Assembly: GCA_017548605.1 (NCBI GenBank)
Contig: JAFYZT010000036.1
Coordinates: forward strand, 186,001-250,000
Direction: 5' to 3'
DNA from: Prevotella sp.
Lineage (GTDB): Bacteria; Bacteroidota; Bacteroidia; Bacteroidales; Bacteroidaceae
DNA length: 64,000 bases
A model generated the notes under the pieces. That model searched no databases, was not told where the DNA came from, and worked only from the letters and a program-made list of their open reading frames with translations. Every line of letters starts with the position of its first letter. Positions within the stretch are counted from its first letter, which is position 1. Both the position numbers and the translations under genes were made by a program. Shown piece by piece: positions 21,693-40,488 of this stretch.

Positions 21693-22058
21693 GATAGCAG
21701 CGCCGCGGCTTGCCGCTGGCTCCACTATGGGGCGAGAGGAAAGTCCGGGCAGTCAGGGCACCCCACTTCCGAAAATAGAAGCTATTGGTGACAGTAGGTG
21801 ACGGCAGAAGAAAATAACCGCCCTCTTCGGAGGGTAAGGGTGAGAAGGTGGTGTAAGAGACCACCAGGCGATGGGTGATCATCGCGCTGTGCCGGCTGGG
21901 GACTGCAAATTCAAGTATACCGTCGTCTGAGGGAAGCCCGCCCGACTAATTCCGACGGAGGGTAGAACGCTCGAGCCCGAGGGTGACTTTGGGCCTAGAT
22001 AAATGGCAGGCAGCACAGCAATGTGTTACAGAACCCGGCTTATAGCGGCACTGCTTCC
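21693..22058 (+). ncRNA. rnpB: RNase P RNA (bacterial class A)
   Basis: The universal core is present: GAGGAAAGTCCGGGC at 21736-21750 and the matching 3' segment ACAGAACCCGGCTTA at 22028-22042. The ends pair as helix P1: AGCAG-C-GCCGC (21696-21706) with GCGGC-A-CTGCT (22045-22055). The middle holds the GGTAAGGGTGA-type segment and a GTGTAAGAGACCACCAGG loop as expected. It is the catalytic RNA that matures tRNA 5' ends. Boundaries are set from P1 and are good to a few bases. A T-run follows P1. The yihY gene starts about 20 bp downstream. Confidence 0.95.
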
Positions 22059-32645: not shown

Positions 32646-34319
32646 TTATTGGTTTACGAATCCAATTCTGGTAATTTTAGAATTCCTGATATTTTCACTG
32701 TGACAGTAAGCTCTAACGCTTGAAATATCTTGATGGTGTCCATAGAGAATACAGTCAACAGTCTGTTTTCGTGCAATGTTCTCAATCTGACCACCACTGA
32801 AATCATAGTCCCTGGCAAGACTTCTCGCTTCTTCATAACTAAGGAACGGTAACATGGATTTCCAAATTTGTCTTCTTGTGTCTATCGTCGGTTTGTCAAA
32901 ACAAATTTTATAAAGGAAGCGACGTTCAAATGCTGAATCCAAATTATTTGTGAGGTTGGTTGTGGCAATCATTATTCCTGTGAGATTTTCCATAGCCTGA
33001 AGAATAATATTCTGATAGGCATTCTCCATTTTGTCAACGGCAGCATCGACATTGTCTAAGCGTTTGCTGATAATGGCATCAGCCTCGTTGAAGAGTAGGA
33101 TGGGGCAGATGTCATACTTCTTGACCATGGCCTCATATTTACTGAAAAGTCCCTGTATTTTCTTCTCGCTCTCACCAACCCATTTTGATTTCATTTCGGA
33201 TACATTAACTTGGAAGATTGGACGTCCAGTTCTACGACCCAGCTGTAGCACGGTTTCTGTCTTGCCTGTACCAGGGGAGCCATAGAAGAGGCAAGCGAAA
33301 CCAGTACGCATATTCGCTTCTTTAAGACGCAGCTGAATATCTTTGAACCTGTCTATAGACAGTAGTTTGGTCAGGTGTTCTATCTCTTCTGATTCACGCT
33401 CATTGTAGTACATACGCTTTTCTGCAATGACATCTGGCATAAGTAATAAGTTGCTTATGCTTTCGTCCTTTGTATTTATGTATTCTTTAAGATCTTCAAG
33501 AGTTGTTTCTAGTGTCTTATCTGTAAGACAGAATTTGTCTGGTTCAACCATGCCGTTGACAGTGTAGTTTTCCATCCACCCCTTTTTTGTCAATATACAA
33601 GTGTTGGCATTTAGAACGAAGATGAAAGACTTTATGCCTGATTCTTCAGGAAGGATTCGCAGTATTTCTGAGGAAGCAATATACTCAGAGTTGTTTTCCA
33701 ACTTATCCTTCACTGTAAGAAGAATCACCATTATGGCAAGATTGTTCATTTCGGATGTAAGCAAGTCTTTTGAGAATGTCAGATGTCTTGTTGACTCCAA
33801 GAGTTGTCTGATGCTTTTAACAATGTCATCATAGAGTTCTTCATCGCGTTTAAGCATCTCTATCCATTTGCTAATCTTTGTATAGACATCGTATGTGGTG
33901 TAGTCTTCATATTTCTTTGGGGTATATGGTACATTATCTATGACAGCATCCATAAACTCATCACGAATGCGGTATTCTAAGGAGCATCTTACCATACTCC
34001 ATTGTATGAAGTGCCTATAATGCAAATCATCCAGTTCTCCCTTGTGTATGCGAAATCTGATAGGTGAACATTTCGTATAACGTGCCATATCGTTGAGAGA
34101 TATAGATTCGTCGCTATTAGCAAGTATGGCAAGCATAATCGATTGAAAAATAGTAACGTTTAGTTCATTGCGGACAAAGTTGATAGCGTCATTGCACGTA
34201 TTGTAGAATTCTGGTGAGAGTTTACTTTCACAAGACTCCTGATAAATTATCTCAAAGGCTGATGCAAGGGTATAATTCTCTGATTTCTTCTTTATTGTTT
34301 TCCTTTCTTTTTTTTCCAT
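32646..34319 (-). CDS. AAA ATPase with variant Walker B (FNEAD), in operon with an accessory sigma factor
   Basis: 557 aa. The first ~330 residues are alpha-helical with no family I recognise. The AAA module follows: Walker A G-S-P-G-T-G-K-T near residue 345, pore-like K-S-K-W-V-G-E-S-E near 377, Walker B L-L-F-N-E-A-D-A-I near 408, sensor 1 A-T-T-N, and an arginine-finger F-E-R-R-F-L-Y near 455. Asn stands where classic AAA proteins have Asp in D-E-A-D, while the catalytic Glu is kept. The gene is 28 bp downstream of the sigma gene. It may remodel a protein such as a regulator or anti-sigma; this is inference. Confidence 0.85.
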   Translation of the reverse strand: MEKKERKTIKKKSENYTLASAFEIIYQESCESKLSPEFYNTCNDAINFVRNELNVTIFQSIMLAILANSDESISLNDMARYTKCSPIRFRIHKGELDDLHYRHFIQWSMVRCSLEYRIRDEFMDAVIDNVPYTPKKYEDYTTYDVYTKISKWIEMLKRDEELYDDIVKSIRQLLESTRHLTFSKDLLTSEMNNLAIMVILLTVKDKLENNSEYIASSEILRILPEESGIKSFIFVLNANTCILTKKGWMENYTVNGMVEPDKFCLTDKTLETTLEDLKEYINTKDESISNLLLMPDVIAEKRMYYNERESEEIEHLTKLLSIDRFKDIQLRLKEANMRTGFACLFYGSPGTGKTETVLQLGRRTGRPIFQVNVSEMKSKWVGESEKKIQGLFSKYEAMVKKYDICPILLFNEADAIISKRLDNVDAAVDKMENAYQNIILQAMENLTGIMIATTNLTNNLDSAFERRFLYKICFDKPTIDTRRQIWKSMLPFLSYEEARSLARDYDFSGGQIENIARKQTVDCILYGHHQDISSVRAYCHSENIRNSKITRIGFVNQ

Positions 34320-34347: not shown

Positions 34348-35214
34348 TTACCTAATGTGTTGTACTAATATTCCAATCTTATTGGAGCGTCGAATTTTGC
34401 TGAGTGCATTTTCGCGTATCTGACGGACACGCTCTTTGGATAAACCAAGTGCAAAACCAATATCTTCAAGTCCTTCCTCCTTGCAATCAATGCCGAAGCT
34501 ACGCATTATGATTTCCCTTTCCTTGGCAGAAAGAATTTGGTTGAGCATGGTAATCATATCATGATGTAGAGAATCCTTGTCTGAGGATTCATCAGTTCTA
34601 TAACCAGAAGAGACAAGGTCGCCGACGGATGTTTCAGTATCTTCAGAGAGAGGTGCATCCATAGACAACGTCTTGTTGGTATGCTCAAGAAGCATCCTGG
34701 CTTTGTACTCACTGATATCAGCAAACTCTGCAAACTCCGCTACCGTTGGTTGCCTTTGTTCCGTCTGCATCGTCTCATTCGACAGTATGAAGTACATGTT
34801 GAGGAGTGCTTGCTGGTTTAGAGGCAATCTGATAGTTCTGCCATTATCACAGACAGCTGAAGAGATAGACTGACGTATCCACCATACGGCATACGATATG
34901 AACTTGAAACCTCGTGTGTCATCAAAACGTTCTGCTGCCTTGATAAGACCAATGTTTCCCTCAGAAATCAGGTCAGACAGGTCCATATTGTGCTGATGAT
35001 ACTGGTTGGCTACGGAAATAACGAAGCGAAGGTTTGCTTCTATTAGTCTTTGACGTGCCTTGTCTGCCTCCTTACCGCCTTGTCGTATCTTCTGTGCGAG
35101 TGCCACCTCTTCATCTGATGTTGCCATTGGGTAACGGCTTACTTCCTTGAGATAATTGTTTACTGAAATTTTGTTGCGTTCGGTGATGTGCTGGGTGCTT
35201 TTGAATTGTCTCAT
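34348..35214 (-). CDS. Accessory sigma-70 factor (RpoD/SigA-like)
   Basis: 288 aa with sigma regions 1.2 to 4 complete. Region 2 reads N-L-R-F-V-I-S-V-A-N-Q-Y ... L-I-S-E-G-N-I-G-L-I-K-A-A-E-R-F-D and A-V-W-W-I-R-Q-S-I; region 3 Q-P-T-V-A-E-F-A-E; region 4.2 has the -33-binding helix G-L-S-K-E-R-V-R-Q-I-R-E-N-A-L. It is like the Bacteroidota primary sigma (M-R-Q-x-K start) but diverged, for example in region 4.1 and in C-D-N-G-R-T-I-R. Its position in an accessory block, with an ATPase behind it, argues for a dedicated regulon. Confidence 0.88.
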   Translation of the reverse strand: MRQFKSTQHITERNKISVNNYLKEVSRYPMATSDEEVALAQKIRQGGKEADKARQRLIEANLRFVISVANQYHQHNMDLSDLISEGNIGLIKAAERFDDTRGFKFISYAVWWIRQSISSAVCDNGRTIRLPLNQQALLNMYFILSNETMQTEQRQPTVAEFAEFADISEYKARMLLEHTNKTLSMDAPLSEDTETSVGDLVSSGYRTDESSDKDSLHHDMITMLNQILSAKEREIIMRSFGIDCKEEGLEDIGFALGLSKERVRQIRENALSKIRRSNKIGILVQHIR

Positions 35215-35229
35215 ATATTCTTTCTATTC

Positions 35230-35694
35230 TTATGACTTTACCACTCTACGGATTACTATTCGATAGTTCTTCAGTTTGAGCATAGGCTGACCAAGGTATG
35301 AAGAAATCTCATAGCCATTTGCCTTCATCCAATCCACCACTTGGTTGCGGATTTCGTTGTCATAGGCGATTGTCACTTGCAGAGGCTGCTGTGCAGCGAA
35401 TATGTTTGGAACATAGGTGGCATTGTCCGGTTGAGTTGCGGTGATGCCAAGGATAAAGGGCATGAGGGAGCCATTCAGGGAGCACTTGTCTGCCTCCTGC
35501 TCGAAGCCTAGTTCCATCCGTATTCCTTCTACTATCTTCGCCAAGTCGAGCAAGGCATCCGTTAGGCAGTTTTGGCAGATGGCATCCAGTTCAGCGGTCA
35601 AGTGCTGTTCCATCCCCATAATGTCAATACCTTTTTGTTTTCTGGTGTATTCCACCTGAAAGCGGAATGATTCATTCTTTGCTCGTGTAGCCAA
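35230..35694 (-). CDS. Small protein of unknown function, first gene of the sigma/AAA operon
   Basis: 154 aa if started at a TTG (35692-35694); ATG 35617-35619 would give 129 aa. The frame stays open upstream through a Lys-rich stretch without a start, while an ATG at 35726-35728 in another frame opens M-S-K and then stops after eight codons. One lost or gained base would join that ATG to this frame, so the gene may be frameshifted at its 5' end or use TTG. The body has a helical centre (C-L-T-D-A-L-L-D-L-A-K-I-V-E) and a C-terminal strand-rich R-I-V-I-R-R-V-V. No family recognised. It lies 15 bp before the sigma gene. Confidence 0.55.
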   Translation of the reverse strand: MATRAKNESFRFQVEYTRKQKGIDIMGMEQHLTAELDAICQNCLTDALLDLAKIVEGIRMELGFEQEADKCSLNGSLMPFILGITATQPDNATYVPNIFAAQQPLQVTIAYDNEIRNQVVDWMKANGYEISSYLGQPMLKLKNYRIVIRRVVKS

Positions 35695-35761
35695 TTGCGT
35701 TTTACGCTTCTGATCTTTGTTTACTCATAGTCTTATAATTTCATATAGTTAAGAGGAATTG

Positions 35762-35859
35762 CCCCCATATATATGTATCTTTATACGATGAATAACACGA
35801 AATAACGGCGTTTTTGCAGGATGATGTGCAAAAACACCGCAGAAAAGAGTGCGAAAATG
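35762..35859 (-). promoter_or_regulatory. Duplicated control element, copy 1 (upstream of the sigma/AAA operon)
   Basis: Nearly the same order of blocks as copy 2 at 38207-38297: CCCATATAT, a TATACGA, AATAACGGC, a hairpin and GCGAAAATG. The hairpin (35806-35839) pairs CGGcGTTTTTGCA with TGCAAAAACaCCG around an 8-base loop. On the minus strand it precedes the first gene of the operon. It has no match to the usual TTTG/TAnnTTTG promoter, so it may be a promoter for a different sigma factor or an operator. Confidence 0.65.
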
Positions 35860-35918
35860 AAATTTTTTACTGATTTTAATGTGAAAAATCAGTTCTTTCA
35901 GTTCTTCGTAAGAAATTT

Positions 35919-37196
35919 TTAAGCATTAAAAGAATCTGCTTTCGGAACTGATAGCAGCGAAATAGGCTGGCCATCATAAAGCCTGATAACTGGCCATTCG
36001 TCGCAAAACTGTCTTACAAACTGTTCTGGACTATCTGTATGGATGGGAATAATGGCTTTAGGCTGGAGCAGGCGGAAGAGCTCACGCAAATCTTTCATGT
36101 CAACATGGCCACTTGTATGCATATAATCATATTCGCCATCCAAAGAGTTGGCCAAGTTCTCATTGTAGGCCTCGGTTCCCTCTTTAACATAGCCATCCCA
36201 CATGGACAGCACTTTCTGCTTCTCTCCTGGGATTTGTTCAAGAAGATCGTCAAATCGTTCACAGCTCCGAGCGACAAGCACATAACCTTTCTTATCAAGA
36301 TACTCTTTAAAACTGTCAGATACAAAGAACCGATTCTTATCAAACTTATGATACATCAGTTGCTCTGGCTTATATTTCCCATATTGATATAATGGGGATT
36401 TAGTCCATATAGAATTGCTGTTGACTACAACATCCATCATCTGTCTCTGATACCCATCGACATAGAAAGGTCTTCCTGCCTCTAAAGCCGCATGATACAA
36501 GGAAAATAACCTGTCAATATTAGTAGATGAAAGGTAGACCACCGTGGATTTCTTCTCCTGAAACAGAGACACGAAGTCACGTTGCAGTTCTGATTCCTTC
36601 TTGCTAGTTACACTTGGTCGGAGAATATTGGTAGCTTCACATATCACGTAGTCAACCCAGCCAACATATTGCTCTATCATTTTGAAAAACTTAACGCTTC
36701 TGAATCCATGCAAGCGGAAATCGCCTGTATGATAGGCTGACACGCCACCTGCTTCGATTCTGAATGCGTATGCGTCAAAAGCAGAATGATCCACCGTTAT
36801 CGGTTTAATGTTAAAAAGGCCAAATGTGAAATTCCGTCCTGCCTTAAAAGTTAGCATTTTTTGCAGGAGCTTCACCATATCTTGATGAGCGGGTATTACG
36901 TTCTTCAAATGGTTTGACAACACCAATTGTATGTCGCGCGCAACCTCACCCATGTATATGGGAAGGGTCTCTGACAACTTTGTTATATTGCCAATATGGT
37001 CTCCATGATAATGAGTGATTAGCAATGCGCTTTTCGACAAATCACCATGTGTCAAACCTTCGACTTGTAGTTCTCCTGTCTTAGGTCCACCCGGAAGTTC
37101 TTCACCGTAATCGACGAACAGATGCCAACCGTTATACTCGTATTCCGTGACGCAACCGCCTATCTGGTCTGTGCCACGATGAATGGTGATAGTCAT
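35919..37196 (-). CDS. Metallo-beta-lactamase-fold nuclease-like protein (RNase J/beta-CASP related)
   Basis: 425 aa. Metal site T-H-Y-H-G-D-H-I-G-N near residue 60; further ligands in H-T-G-D-F-R near 155 (Asp) and a C-terminal H-T-S-G-H-V-D followed by P-I-H-T-D near 375-395, the RMMBL motif of RNA-processing MBL enzymes. The middle segment (V-Y-L-S-S-T-N-I-D-R-L) sits where beta-CASP domains occur. RNase J processes RNA 5' ends; here the location in an accessory operon suggests a special role. The start overlaps the stop of the nuclease gene upstream by one base. Confidence 0.8.
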   Translation of the reverse strand: MTITIHRGTDQIGGCVTEYEYNGWHLFVDYGEELPGGPKTGELQVEGLTHGDLSKSALLITHYHGDHIGNITKLSETLPIYMGEVARDIQLVLSNHLKNVIPAHQDMVKLLQKMLTFKAGRNFTFGLFNIKPITVDHSAFDAYAFRIEAGGVSAYHTGDFRLHGFRSVKFFKMIEQYVGWVDYVICEATNILRPSVTSKKESELQRDFVSLFQEKKSTVVYLSSTNIDRLFSLYHAALEAGRPFYVDGYQRQMMDVVVNSNSIWTKSPLYQYGKYKPEQLMYHKFDKNRFFVSDSFKEYLDKKGYVLVARSCERFDDLLEQIPGEKQKVLSMWDGYVKEGTEAYNENLANSLDGEYDYMHTSGHVDMKDLRELFRLLQPKAIIPIHTDSPEQFVRQFCDEWPVIRLYDGQPISLLSVPKADSFNA

Positions 37197-38164
37197 TACA
37201 TTAACCGGTCTTTGAATGAGCCACTAAACTCAAATTTTACTCTTGAAAACAATGCGTCTTTATCAAAATATAATGTGTATGTCCGAAGAGTAAAGCTACC
37301 AACCTGATATTCCTCCTCAATAATAGTCTCTTCGCCCTTGGGGATTAATCCAACAACATCAATAGTATGAGGGCATTGTTCCTTATAACCAAATATCTTC
37401 ATCCAATCAGATCCTCCTTTGCTGTCCAAAAGTTTTGCAATAAATACAGCATAGCTGAGTGCTTGTTGAATAACATCGGACATAGGTTCTTCGGGCTTGT
37501 TTTGGTCCTTTAATTCAAAAACACCAAGATAAACCGTATTGTCTTTATGACGGGAACGAGCCATAATGTCAATACCCCCCCCCTTTTTGCTAAATGAAAC
37601 TATTCCCTTCTTTGATGCACTAAGGTTAGTGGTTAGTTGCACATACTCTCCTCCAAAGGTAATAGGCTGAATATTAATAAGAGATTTCTTCTTTGAATCA
37701 GTCTGATGGAACTCTCGCAAAAGAAGGTTCTCACATTTATGCTCAGGAGAGTGTGTCTCAGCATCTGCGACATCAATCTGCGACAAGAAAGATCTGAAAC
37801 GATTCATGTTGCTTCCATTCCACAATTCGCAAGGCTGCAATTTAGGAATGTTTGGGTATCTCTTAACCAAATCATTATACCCACTTGTACTTTTCTTAAA
37901 GAAACGTGAACCATCGGGCATGATAATGAGTGAGCCAATACTTTGGCCAAGATAGCGAATATCTGTTTCAACTTTCTTTCCTCTAAATTTTGTAATAGAA
38001 GTATATTTGGATAGAGGGAATTTTACTTTAGCCTTTTGGGTCAACTCTTTATGATATGCCTCATACTTTAGAATATCTTTTGCATATTTTGCGTACCGAG
38101 TTTCCCAATCGGAATCTTTTGATATTTCGATAAGGGCCTTTTTAATGATTTCTTCGTTTGTCAT
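37196..38164 (-). CDS. PD-(D/E)XK-like nuclease candidate containing a G9 tract
   Basis: 322 aa. No named family recognised. In the C-terminal half, G-I-D-I-M-A-R is followed fifteen or so residues later by L-G-V-F-E-L-K-D-Q-N and then Q-Q-A-L-S-Y-A-V-F, which is the D ... E-x-K ... Q/A-x-x-Y layout of PD-(D/E)XK nucleases. Just before the Asp the coding strand has nine G's (37575-37583) giving G-G-G. The gene precedes the MBL gene with one-base overlap and follows copy 2 of the duplicated control element by about 80 bp. Confidence 0.6.
   Translation of the reverse strand: MTNEEIIKKALIEISKDSDWETRYAKYAKDILKYEAYHKELTQKAKVKFPLSKYTSITKFRGKKVETDIRYLGQSIGSLIIMPDGSRFFKKSTSGYNDLVKRYPNIPKLQPCELWNGSNMNRFRSFLSQIDVADAETHSPEHKCENLLLREFHQTDSKKKSLINIQPITFGGEYVQLTTNLSASKKGIVSFSKKGGGIDIMARSRHKDNTVYLGVFELKDQNKPEEPMSDVIQQALSYAVFIAKLLDSKGGSDWMKIFGYKEQCPHTIDVVGLIPKGEETIIEEEYQVGSFTLRTYTLYFDKDALFSRVKFEFSGSFKDRLM
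37575..37583 (-). repeat. G9 homopolymer inside a coding sequence
   Basis: Nine consecutive C on the plus strand (G on the coding strand). Slippage by one base would cut the nuclease just ahead of its predicted catalytic Asp. In this copy the frame is open. Confidence 0.9.
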
Positions 38165-38206
38165 AATGATTCATTATTTATTAGTCATTTTTTATATAGG
38201 TAGTGT

Positions 38207-38297
38207 ACCCCATATATTTATATACGAAGAAGATAACACAATAACGGCTTTTTTGCAGGTTGATGTGGAAAAACGCCGCAGAAGAGGGGCGAAAATG
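38207..38297 (-). promoter_or_regulatory. Duplicated control element, copy 2 (upstream of the nuclease/MBL operon)
   Basis: Matches copy 1 block by block. The hairpin at 38245-38278 pairs CGGC-TTTTT-G-CA with TG-G-AAAAA-C-GCCG (11 of 13 positions), and its outer CGGC/GCCG pairs are perfect where copy 1 has one mismatch. It starts 43 bp, and the hairpin 81 bp, upstream of the nuclease ATG. The gene-free stretch 38165-38366 holds nothing else clear. Confidence 0.65.
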
Positions 38298-38366: not shown

Positions 38367-39104
38367 TTATTGTACTCTTGTATACTCAGGAATGCTGATT
38401 TTAATCTTTTTTACCCAACAGAAAAAATCTTCCCCTTCAATTTTTCGTTGAATCATTCCCTGGTCATTTGCCCCAATATTATTTAAGAATTTGCAAAAGT
38501 CTTCGTCATTTTTTTTAATAACCTTATCATACGACTCTGTAGTCTCACCCCTGTTTAATGTAATTTCCCCAACAAATACGATTATAAGCAAAATAGCGTT
38601 TCTATACCCAGCTTTCATCGCAGAAATCATGGCTCCTCGAGTAGCAGTAAATAATTGATATCCTATCTCGTCAACATTATTACCAGGGGTCAGGAATTCC
38701 TTAAGTGCAAAAGCACGTGTATTATTATTGCCACCCTGTTCTTTATATACATCAATAAAATTGAGATCAAAAGTCTCAGACACTTTGGCCTCAACCCCTA
38801 TAACGCAATTTTTAGTGCCCACCATTAGCAAATCATGATTGCGAGGTCCACCTGTTTTCATTCCTTTTCCCAAACCGGCAGTTGCTTCTGGTTCGCAATG
38901 GAAATCTTGGATTTCTATACCACATTCTTTTAAAATCTCTGTTATTACGCCGTTGAATATGTTATTTTGATTTATTGCAAAATCAGCCATATGCCAAGCA
39001 CTCCGGCCTTTTACCCATTGTCTATCTTTTCCCTTAGGGGCAGCATATTTTTCCCAATCTTTAAACGTTTTTATCTTGTTATTTTTAACAAACTCTGTTT
39101 TCAT
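38367..39104 (-). CDS. Putative nuclease (PD-(D/E)XK-like, resembles DUF6946)
   Basis: 245 aa. After G-R-S-A-W-H-M-A-D-F-A (near residue 33) there is H-D-L-L-M-V-G-T-K-N-C-V-I-G-V-E-A-K-V-S-E-T-F-D (broken here only for reading: D then E-x-K), the expected Asp and Glu-Lys pair of a PD-(D/E)XK core; a Q-L-F-T-A-T-R-G-A segment later could be the usual helix. I recall DUF6946 proteins with the same S-A-W and E-A-K features but cannot check. It is co-directional with the WYL regulator upstream (8-bp gap). Confidence 0.5.
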   Translation of the reverse strand: MKTEFVKNNKIKTFKDWEKYAAPKGKDRQWVKGRSAWHMADFAINQNNIFNGVITEILKECGIEIQDFHCEPEATAGLGKGMKTGGPRNHDLLMVGTKNCVIGVEAKVSETFDLNFIDVYKEQGGNNNTRAFALKEFLTPGNNVDEIGYQLFTATRGAMISAMKAGYRNAILLIIVFVGEITLNRGETTESYDKVIKKNDEDFCKFLNNIGANDQGMIQRKIEGEDFFCWVKKIKISIPEYTRVQ

Positions 39105-39112
39105 GAAATCTT

Positions 39113-40027
39113 TTATTTGTAAAAGTTAAACATTTTATTGATTTTCTCTTTCATCTCTTCTCTCAGCACCTTTGGCTTCAGCACTTCAACTTTATCCCCC
39201 ATTGCAAGCAACTGGCTCACCAATTCTGGGGTTACGCATAAACGATAGGAGAACTCCGCGAACTCACGATATTTGGAACGGCCTTCCGATTGGCTTTTGT
39301 GAAGCGGGGTAGAGCGAAGATATTCAGCCTGAATGCCATAGGCGCGGATTTTAACTTTAGTGATGGGTAAATCTTTATTCACAAAGATGCCAACGACATC
39401 GGCAAAATACTTCCTCACATCAAAATCCTCAGGCAACTTAAAACTATTTTTAAGGACCTTCAAACCGAGTATTCGGTCCAATGCGATTGTGCGCAATCCT
39501 TCTTGTTTTTTTAGATAACCTAACAGATACCAACGGCGATTAAAGACTCTTAGCGCATAGGGCTGAATGTGAAACGTCTGAAGATGCTCTTCCTTCATGC
39601 TTTCATAGCGTTGATAATCAACTTGCAACTCCACGTTCTGTTTCATAGCCTCAATGATATCATTAAGGAAAGATGTTCCCAATGGAATTTCTTCCAACAA
39701 GATTCTGTCCTTCATAGCATTGAAGGTTGTAAAATCTTGTGGAATGCTGTAATTCCGCAACAGCCATTTCGATAGGCTCTGCTCGTCCAATACTTCAGGA
39801 TTCTTGACGTAATACACATTACCATGCGAGCGGTCGCATACTATCTCCACTCCAAACATCTCCTTGATTCCCTTGCGATGCTCGTGGAAAGTGCGTAGTG
39901 GTATAGGTCGTCCATCGCTGGCTGGACAATCCTCCCATAACATATTAATCTCATCGATTGTTAAGAGGTCGCTGTTCAGCAACATGTCGAGGAGCCAAAT
40001 GTATCTGTAATATGTTTTGCTGATCAT
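39113..40027 (-). CDS. WYL-domain transcriptional regulator
   Basis: 304 aa. An N-terminal winged helix-like region (L-L-T-I-D-E-I-N-M-L-W ... R-T-F-H-E-H-R) followed by a WYL domain with P-Y-A-L-R-V-F-N-R-R-W-Y-L-L-G-Y (residues ~155-172) and a C-terminal WCX region (V-T-P-E-L-V-S-Q-L-L-A-M-G-D-K-V-E-V-L). WYL proteins such as BrxR and CapW bind inverted repeats and repress defence operons until a ligand is sensed. A 20-bp palindrome 80 bp upstream of the start (40107-40126) is a likely operator. Confidence 0.85.
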   Translation of the reverse strand: MISKTYYRYIWLLDMLLNSDLLTIDEINMLWEDCPASDGRPIPLRTFHEHRKGIKEMFGVEIVCDRSHGNVYYVKNPEVLDEQSLSKWLLRNYSIPQDFTTFNAMKDRILLEEIPLGTSFLNDIIEAMKQNVELQVDYQRYESMKEEHLQTFHIQPYALRVFNRRWYLLGYLKKQEGLRTIALDRILGLKVLKNSFKLPEDFDVRKYFADVVGIFVNKDLPITKVKIRAYGIQAEYLRSTPLHKSQSEGRSKYREFAEFSYRLCVTPELVSQLLAMGDKVEVLKPKVLREEMKEKINKMFNFYK

Positions 40028-40126: not shown

Positions 40127-40488
40127 ATATTTTACCAACATATAGCTTTGTCAGTTACAAATATACAGAAAATAATTTGAAATAGGCGTTTTTACAACCC
40201 TATTTTACACAGTCTTTTTTGAAAAGCACTTTTTGATGAGAAATGTGTGAACATATCTGGTAGAATTTCACGGGTGGCTATACTTCGAAGCATTTACTTA
40301 GGCTGAATGACTCGTGCTCTCCATGGAAGACATACCCCAACTGATTGGACACACATTTGGTGTTGCCTATCTCAACATCCACATTGTAGTGCGAGTACCC
40401 AAAAAGGCAAAGTCATTGCATCCACCAAGAGCAAAGGCAGACACAATACAAACCGCGACATAGACAGGAGATTGGGGATTCGCTTCAT
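40127..40488. other. Gene-free stretch with a short open frame
   Basis: No family is recognised. A 46-codon frame from ATG 40324 (M-E-D-I-P-Q-L-I-G-H) and an overlapping 79-codon frame read ordinary sequence with no motif. It could be the worn end of a mobile-element gene, but I see no terminal repeats. Confidence 0.3.

Follow-up and report, generated by a model that had tools for sequence, protein, structure and literature searches.

Background

Transcription regulators of the WYL type bind palindromes of 19 - 24 bp in front of defence and stress genes (PMC9122588, PMC9122601, PMC10693628, PMC12340889), and both repressors and activators are described among them. CapW (CBASS) and BrxR (BREX) are repressors whose genes head defence operons and whose operators are dyads of ~20 bp; the CapW sites overlap the -10 region, the BrxR site lies downstream of the predicted -10, and two boxes occur within one island in the case of BrxR. 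The activators DriD and SiwR bind pseudo-palindromes of 19 - 20 bp, which overlap the -35 region in the case of DriD, a protein that works with the housekeeping sigma factor on poor promoters, and lie between -35 and -10 in the case of SiwR. At CRP class I promoters the activator site is centred at -61.5, and -72.5 is among the positions tested (PMC6301791). The promoter consensus of the primary sigma factor of Bacteroidetes is TAnnTTTG/TTTG (PMC7366714).

Here we analyse a locus in a stretch of 64,000 nucleotides of Prevotella sp. DNA (the window), in which a WYL gene stands at the head of two adjacent minus-strand operons, each preceded by a copy of the same element. The resemblance to the CapW and BrxR systems extends to the position of the regulator gene, the size of the dyad and, for BrxR, the presence of two sites within one locus. 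By contrast, CapW and BrxR repress from sites that cover the -10 region or follow it, whereas the dyad described here lies upstream, at two distances in helical phase, and sigma and DnaE-like genes are part of the operons. With CGTATAAT as the -10 region, the centre of the dyad would be at least ~25 bp farther upstream than the DriD and SiwR sites. This placement recalls that of CRP, an unrelated protein, and on our side depends on the assumed -10.

The element is conserved among relatives, keeps a fixed and helically phased spacing, is linked to a WYL gene and lacks TAnnTTTG. Judged from the sequences, it is probably a WYL-operated promoter of a kind other than TAnnTTTG, at which the WYL protein would activate both operons. 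Searches of the open literature retrieved no paper on this element, nor on Bacteroidales WYL loci with sigma and DnaE fragments, and the analysis provides a testable operator and promoter for a locus family with no described control element in the literature searched. The pairing of a phage-defence-type regulator with reduced sigma, Pol III alpha and DnaB proteins is likewise undescribed there.

The locus and its two element copies

Along the minus strand, the locus comprises the WYL regulator, a DUF6946 gene, element copy 2, a 322-aa nuclease-like protein, a metallo-beta-lactamase (MBL) protein, element copy 1, orf154, a sigma factor and an AAA ATPase (Table 1). The Pfam scan of the WYL protein matched the WYL and WCX domains and gave no match for the N-terminal wHTH. 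In several other loci the slot of DUF6946 is occupied by REase/PD-(D/E)XK genes. The 322-aa protein had no match in a Pfam scan and no close relative passed in a search of genome contigs, while a GIDIM...ELK stretch, judged by eye, suggests a PD-(D/E)XK fold. The MBL protein matches RNase J models at 1.4e-16, below the cut-offs of those models, and the AAA ATPase falls far below the cut-off of NCBIfam IteA. The genome carries a further RpoD-like gene, with which the sigma factor shares 47% identity. Scanned for defence systems, the seven window proteins yielded similarity of the AAA protein to IetA models, of the sigma factor to part of MzaA, and matches of WYL models, and no complete system was recognised among them. 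A search of the whole window with Rfam at the gathering threshold returned only RNase P RNA (21697-22058), i.e. the element matches no curated family.

Table 1. Features of the locus in the window
Feature	Position	Strand	Evidence
TATATTTG, fits ordinary Bacteroidetes -7 element, before the WYL gene	40158..40165	-	sequence; TAnnTTTG 138 nt upstream
WYL-WCX regulator, proposed reader of the element	39113..40027	-	PF13280 2.8e-12, PF25583 1.1e-7
DUF6946 gene, between WYL and element copy 2	38367..39104	-	PF22187 2.1e-18
Element copy 2, before the nuclease-like/MBL operon	38206..38285	-	profile E 2e-17 (copy in training set)
Predicted dyad operator, copy 2, TCTGC-N9-CCACA	38264..38282	-	centre 47 bp from C of CGTATA
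CGTATA, presumed start of -10 region, copy 2	38221..38226	-	fixed distance also in divergent loci
Nuclease-like 322-aa protein, first gene past copy 2	37196..38164	-	sequence
Metallo-beta-lactamase/RNase J-like protein with RMMBL	35919..37196	-	PF12706 1e-11, PF07521 1.3e-5
Element copy 1, before orf154/sigma/AAA	35760..35846	-	profile E 3.5e-18 (copy in training set)
Predicted dyad operator, copy 1, TCTGC-N9-GCACA	35825..35843	-	pattern match G000:C32:221782-221843; centre 47 bp from CGTATA
Clade-specific hairpin (second dyad), overlaps operator, terminator-like	35806..35839	-	folding, scan
CGTATA, presumed start of -10 region, copy 1	35782..35787	-	pattern match
orf154, DnaE (Pol III alpha) palm-like, first gene past copy 1	35230..35694	-	fold comparison
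Sigma-70 paralog, regions 1.2, 2, 3, 4	34348..35214	-	domain scan
AAA ATPase, IetA-like AAA domain	32646..34319	-	PF00004 9.2e-24, PADLOC IetA 2.4e-26

The original prediction took the blocks at 35762-35859 and 38207-38297 for a duplicated, hairpin-bearing control element placed upstream of the first gene of each operon. Indeed, when aligned on the minus strand the blocks agree in 81 of 99 columns; the local score is 101, and the best score among 1000 dinucleotide shuffles of one copy was 29. Each block stands before the first gene of a minus-strand operon. In copy 1 the hairpin pairs along its whole stem (one G-U, predicted dG -17.7), but in copy 2 it carries two mismatches (dG -7.1). Similarly, the operon described as sigma/AAA does hold both genes on the minus strand, but orf154 comes before the sigma gene. 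The half-site of copy 2 is one base off the consensus and is therefore missed by the dyad pattern that finds copy 1. Within the genome itself (3.25 Mb, 55 contigs) the hairpin pattern without mismatch matches only these two sites, matches at 1 - 2 mismatches resemble the control, and with the element model only these two sites reach an E-value below 0.01, so that no third copy is seen. Three features had gone unmentioned before: the WYL gene, the constant CGTATA, and the DnaE-palm-like gene at the head of the first operon.

Conservation of the element in related genomes

A relaxed pattern, consisting of CTGCGGNG, a T run and CGTATA, was used in one scan of 84,980 species genomes and found 46 further copies in 40 stretches, all in records titled Bacteroidales, Prevotellaceae, Bacteroidaceae or Prevotella. 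Together with the two copies of the window these make up a strict set of 48 copies in 36 genomes, counted on the named set plus the genome of the window, since several entries outside this set duplicate named ones, as judged from equal coordinates (e.g. G246/G284, G129/G281 and G063/G272); most are metagenome bins, and the copies are related by descent, so that the counts of genomes and copies do not represent independent events. No match to a near-identical pattern was found in viral contigs. Outside the bases fixed by the search pattern, the two T before CTGCGG are kept in 46 and 48 of the 48 strict copies, an A two bases past GCA (+17) in 47, and a T before CGTATA in all 48; the conserved bases outside the pattern are as the dyad predicts.

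A model of the element (R1) was run on 251 family genomes with stricter filters that lose weak matches. At E <= 1e-6 it gave 16 matches in 11 genomes. Ten of these contain a WYL homolog with an identity no lower than 54%, present as a fragment in G246, and the eleventh, G183, represents the same locus as G260 by its coordinates. At E <= 0.1 some match appears in 156 of the 251 genomes, the weak ones being treated as background. Strong copies are thus not spread before unrelated genes; such a spread had been named at the outset as refuting the original prediction. The same result bears on the notion that the block is a mobile repeat or a chance duplication without regulatory role: up to four copies occur per locus, weak ones included, as such a repeat might produce, but in many genomes the copies remain next to one and the same set of genes and, because the strong model matches are confined to WYL loci, we reject this explanation as scarcely credible.

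A divergent set of 26 loci was then examined, the majority of which surround WYL homologs of lower similarity to that of the window. In 14 of these loci the dyad TnTGC-N9-GCAnA is followed downstream by CGTATA (once CGCATA), at 17 sites in total, with 47 (5 sites), 48 (10), 49 (1) or 59 (1) bp between the dyad centre and the C. CGTATA, demanded by the relaxed pattern in the strict set, is hence found again at a fixed distance; the dyad pattern used for the divergent loci had itself been derived by eye from part of them, but the distance had not. The hexamer stands on the wrong (upstream control) side of three dyads, and 53 dyads have no CGTATA downstream. The WYL homologs at the 17 sites are 37 - 61% identical to that of the window, except for one site in G278 (83%). 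No site was found in the remaining 12 loci, namely G058, G118, G013, G093, G244 and G041 (WYL 37 - 45%), which account for most of the WYL loci in that identity range, and six others, of which four are distant or control loci and two lie near a sigma gene. The right arm of the hairpin is mostly gone from the divergent sites. In the strict copies the distance from dyad centre to C is 47 - 48 bp in 39 of 48 and 58 - 59 bp in nine, the long spacer being confined to a few lineages.

Finally, a hairpin-free pattern (the dyad with TTTT inside plus TATACG, with 25 gap lengths allowed) found 39 matches in 31 of 399 family genomes and none in reversed-pattern controls. The lengths of these matches fall at 62 - 64 (32 matches), 73 - 74 (6) and 71 (1; in G211, without a module gene nearby). 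For the 30 loci given, a WYL gene lies within ~1.5 kb in 20, a sigma-family gene in 22, and at least one module gene in 28.

The WYL regulator and the sigma factor as partners

A WYL homolog at E <= 1e-60 is present in 32 of 35 element genomes, with best matches of 58 - 87% identity and, in one of the 32, only in two pieces. A 33rd genome (G284) has an 82% WYL fragment at a contig edge, and in the remaining two, G260 and G285, the sequence upstream of the outermost element copy breaks off at a contig end after 177 and 461 bases. The strict element and the WYL gene are on different contigs in two genomes, G270 and G278, the latter with a weaker element copy (C65:59-138) on the WYL contig. The WYL regulator, rather than the sigma factor, is the constant partner of the element.

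In the original prediction, both copies are read by the accessory sigma factor that the first operon encodes, which would make a self-regulated regulon. A sigma or short sigma-like gene does occur in the element locus of 28 of the 36 genomes, a count that includes G285 (split into two frames), G259 (beyond the WYL gene, where it has a weak element to itself) and some genes cut by contig or stretch ends. The first gene past the 48 strict elements belongs to the sigma family in 18 cases, is orf154 in 17, which often precedes the sigma gene, and is another gene in 13. The departure of the presumed -10 from the housekeeping consensus also speaks for such a reader, as do sigma forms reduced to region 2 with region 1.2 (116 aa) or with a weak region 4 (132 aa), which would suit a promoter without a clear -35; a further short form (207 aa) has no region 3. 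However, the locus sigma is absent or broken in six genomes (G257, G260, G272, G275, G279 and G284), all of which keep CGTATA, so that the sigma factor is not a constant partner, and in G257 and G275 orf154 is followed directly by the AAA gene. In two more genomes, G266 and G281, the locus is cut before the expected place of the sigma gene. A whole-genome search of the six with the window sigma, which a very short sigma could escape, retrieved paralogs of 44 - 48% that are common to other genomes, plus weaker ones, and no intact sigma of the locus type. A sigma-read regulon would moreover leave the dyad, its phasing and the WYL linkage unexplained, and we regard it as possible but doubtful. 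The earlier proposal is thus partly supported: two adjacent operons appear to share a small local regulon, but one centred on WYL, which also accounts for the odd promoter that was noticed at the outset.

Promoter geometry and mode of regulation

The absence of a usual promoter from both copies, claimed from the window alone, extends to the whole strict set: TAnnTTTG occurs between the operator and 45 bases past CGTATA in none of the 48 elements (two in the reversed control). In contrast, 15 of 27 distinct WYL genes, that of the window included, have TAnnTTTG in the 250 nt before them (control 4 of 27). The WYL gene itself may fit the class of primary-sigma promoters to which the elements do not belong.

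From the end of the dyad to CGTATA there are 37 - 39 or 48 - 49 bp. These two distances are one helical turn apart, which argues for proteins facing each other on the DNA. If CG-TATAAT is taken as the -10 region, the dyad centre would lie at about -61.5 or -72.5. We also weighed, on the analogy of CapW and BrxR, whether WYL represses these promoters and leaves on a signal. The defence-type neighbours and the repressor role of both proteins would agree with this, but with CGTATA as the -10 the operator covers neither the -10 nor the start, unlike the CapW operators, which cover the -10, or that of BrxR, which is found past a predicted one, and the dyad ends well upstream at two distances one turn apart. 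Repression in this manner seems unlikely to us.

In the preferred reading, WYL-dependent activation, the WYL-WCX protein, whose gene heads the locus, would have the 19-bp dyad TnTGC-N9-GCAnA as its operator. The CGTATAAT-like sequence 37 - 39 bp (or one turn more) past this dyad would be the -10 of a promoter that departs from the usual sigma consensus of Bacteroidetes. A WYL dimer would bind the dyad and, as its position suggests, activate by recruiting RNA polymerase. The trigger may be a nucleic-acid signal sensed by WYL, e.g. single-stranded DNA when phages attack or DNA is damaged. The adjacent nuclease/MBL and orf154/sigma/AAA operons would make up the regulon, and the sigma factor, where present, may take over or strengthen the reading of the same -10 in a feed-forward manner.

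Two further observations concern the WYL gene and protein. As a candidate for autoregulation, a one-mismatch operator was found upstream of 10 of the 27 distinct WYL genes, compared with 5 of 27 in the reversed controls, which is not convincing; a convincing operator accompanies the WYL gene only where the element is divergent to it. Similarly, the N-terminal RTFHE of WYL accompanies most TCTGC operators, and RTFHQ (7 of 51 rows) occurs only with TGTGC or TATGC, with RTFHE in one TATGC locus (L140). As a match between residue and operator base this was set aside: the FHE/FHQ column is outside the 25 most associated columns, which span the whole protein, so that common ancestry explains the correlation equally well, and the rough agreement is no more than consistent with recognition by WYL.

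The hairpin

Over the 48 strict copies the hairpin has a mean dG of -15.9 and a z of -5.4, at least four T lie within 8 nt past the stem in 40 copies, and a terminator scan called 35840-35805 terminator-like, all of which would agree with a role as RNA, either as an intrinsic terminator for the gene upstream or as a structure in the leader. Of the 527 pairing cells 24 are G-U, and four are changed on both sides, a number reached by 8 of 500 shuffles. Nevertheless, covariation is weak and confounded by the search pattern, which largely fixes the left arm, so that most transitions in the right arm give G-U by default; the percentage paired (32 of 500) and the covariation score (23 of 500) barely exceed shuffles, and pair-level measures do not exceed them (369 and 361 of 500). 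The copies of the window have a weak T tract, in addition to the two mismatches of copy 2. ViennaRNA gave z values of -0.2 to -4.3 for the divergent elements and no common hairpin, and the divergent loci, mostly without it, keep the operator and the spacing. That distant relatives lose the hairpin and keep the dyad and CGTATA argues for a DNA operator with a promoter rather than mainly an RNA hairpin, and a primary function as RNA appears quite improbable to us. The hairpin is clade-specific, and the more widely kept part is the 19-bp dyad, whose length is typical of WYL binding sites. In terms of WYL-dependent activation the hairpin would be a second dyad, particular to its lineage, that covers the operator's right half, and with its T tract may also end transcription from upstream.

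Reduced replication and transcription proteins

Several proteins of the loci are cut-down versions of sigma, Pol III alpha and DnaB: besides the short sigma forms, they carry DnaE palm/finger pieces with replaced catalytic acids (PKFQFD), a PHP-like piece and DnaB helicase domains. One possible interpretation, though a highly speculative and improbable one, is that the WYL promoter drives a class of loci, as yet undescribed, that make stand-ins for core machines of the cell beside nucleases, an RNase J-like MBL protein and an AAA ATPase. The sigma, DnaE, PHP and DnaB pieces would in this case be baits for phage proteins that target transcription and replication of the host, and would trigger or guide the nucleases, with WYL and a region-2-only sigma as the switch. 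If they were baits or dead mimics, this would be a new way of guarding the core machinery.

The aspartates of PDxDxD are catalytic in DnaE. In a fold comparison orf154 matched the palm fold of C-family polymerases (with VIA-align 2 alone), at a length of 154 aa as against 900 - 1200 in the solved chains, and PDxDxD is replaced, the window member having PLQVTIAY there. This first gene past element copy 1 is hence a DnaE (Pol III alpha) palm-like protein without the catalytic acids, an identity that was unexpected.

The orf154 start and DnaE-like relatives

The initiator ATG that is conserved among homologs of orf154, the DnaE (Pol III alpha) palm-like protein lacking the catalytic acids, is also present in the window, and the reading frame that departs from it is broken there, the listed ORF beginning at a TTG further in; this could reflect either a sequence error or a real break. 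In related Bacteroidales, locus L100 (L246 is the same locus) encodes a 791-aa DnaE-like protein with PHP, palm and finger, in which the acids are kept, flanked by orf154 and a DnaB C-terminal domain. At L080, a DnaE palm-like domain and a sigma factor are fused in one 531-aa protein.

Sigma gene and element in related loci

L106 retains a remnant of the sigma N-terminus, with orf154 on one side and AAA on the other, and L076/L242 and L095 (two genomes) have no sigma gene at the orf154-AAA position. Following CGTATA, the presumed start of the -10 region, L076 and L095 share GAAA, whereas most close relatives have GATA. In L237 (G155:C8), three element-like sites lie in series, upstream of REase, unknown and orf154-like genes, and in two of them the interval that separates the operator from CGTATA contains a strong hairpin and a T run.

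Other features of the window

Within the 322-aa nuclease-like gene, nine consecutive C (read as G on the coding strand) adjoin the GGGIDIM motif and form a possible slippage (phase-variation) site.

Coordinates of features in the window and related loci
Feature	Sequence	Position	Strand
RNase P RNA (class A)	window	21697-22058	
orf154 start region (conserved ATG, interrupted frame)	window	35694-35740	minus
Nine-C run	window	37575-37583	
791-aa DnaE-like gene	L100	4860-7235	
Palm-like/sigma fusion	L080	2-1597	
Sigma remnant	L106	3014-3295	
Element-like sites	L237	1065-3420
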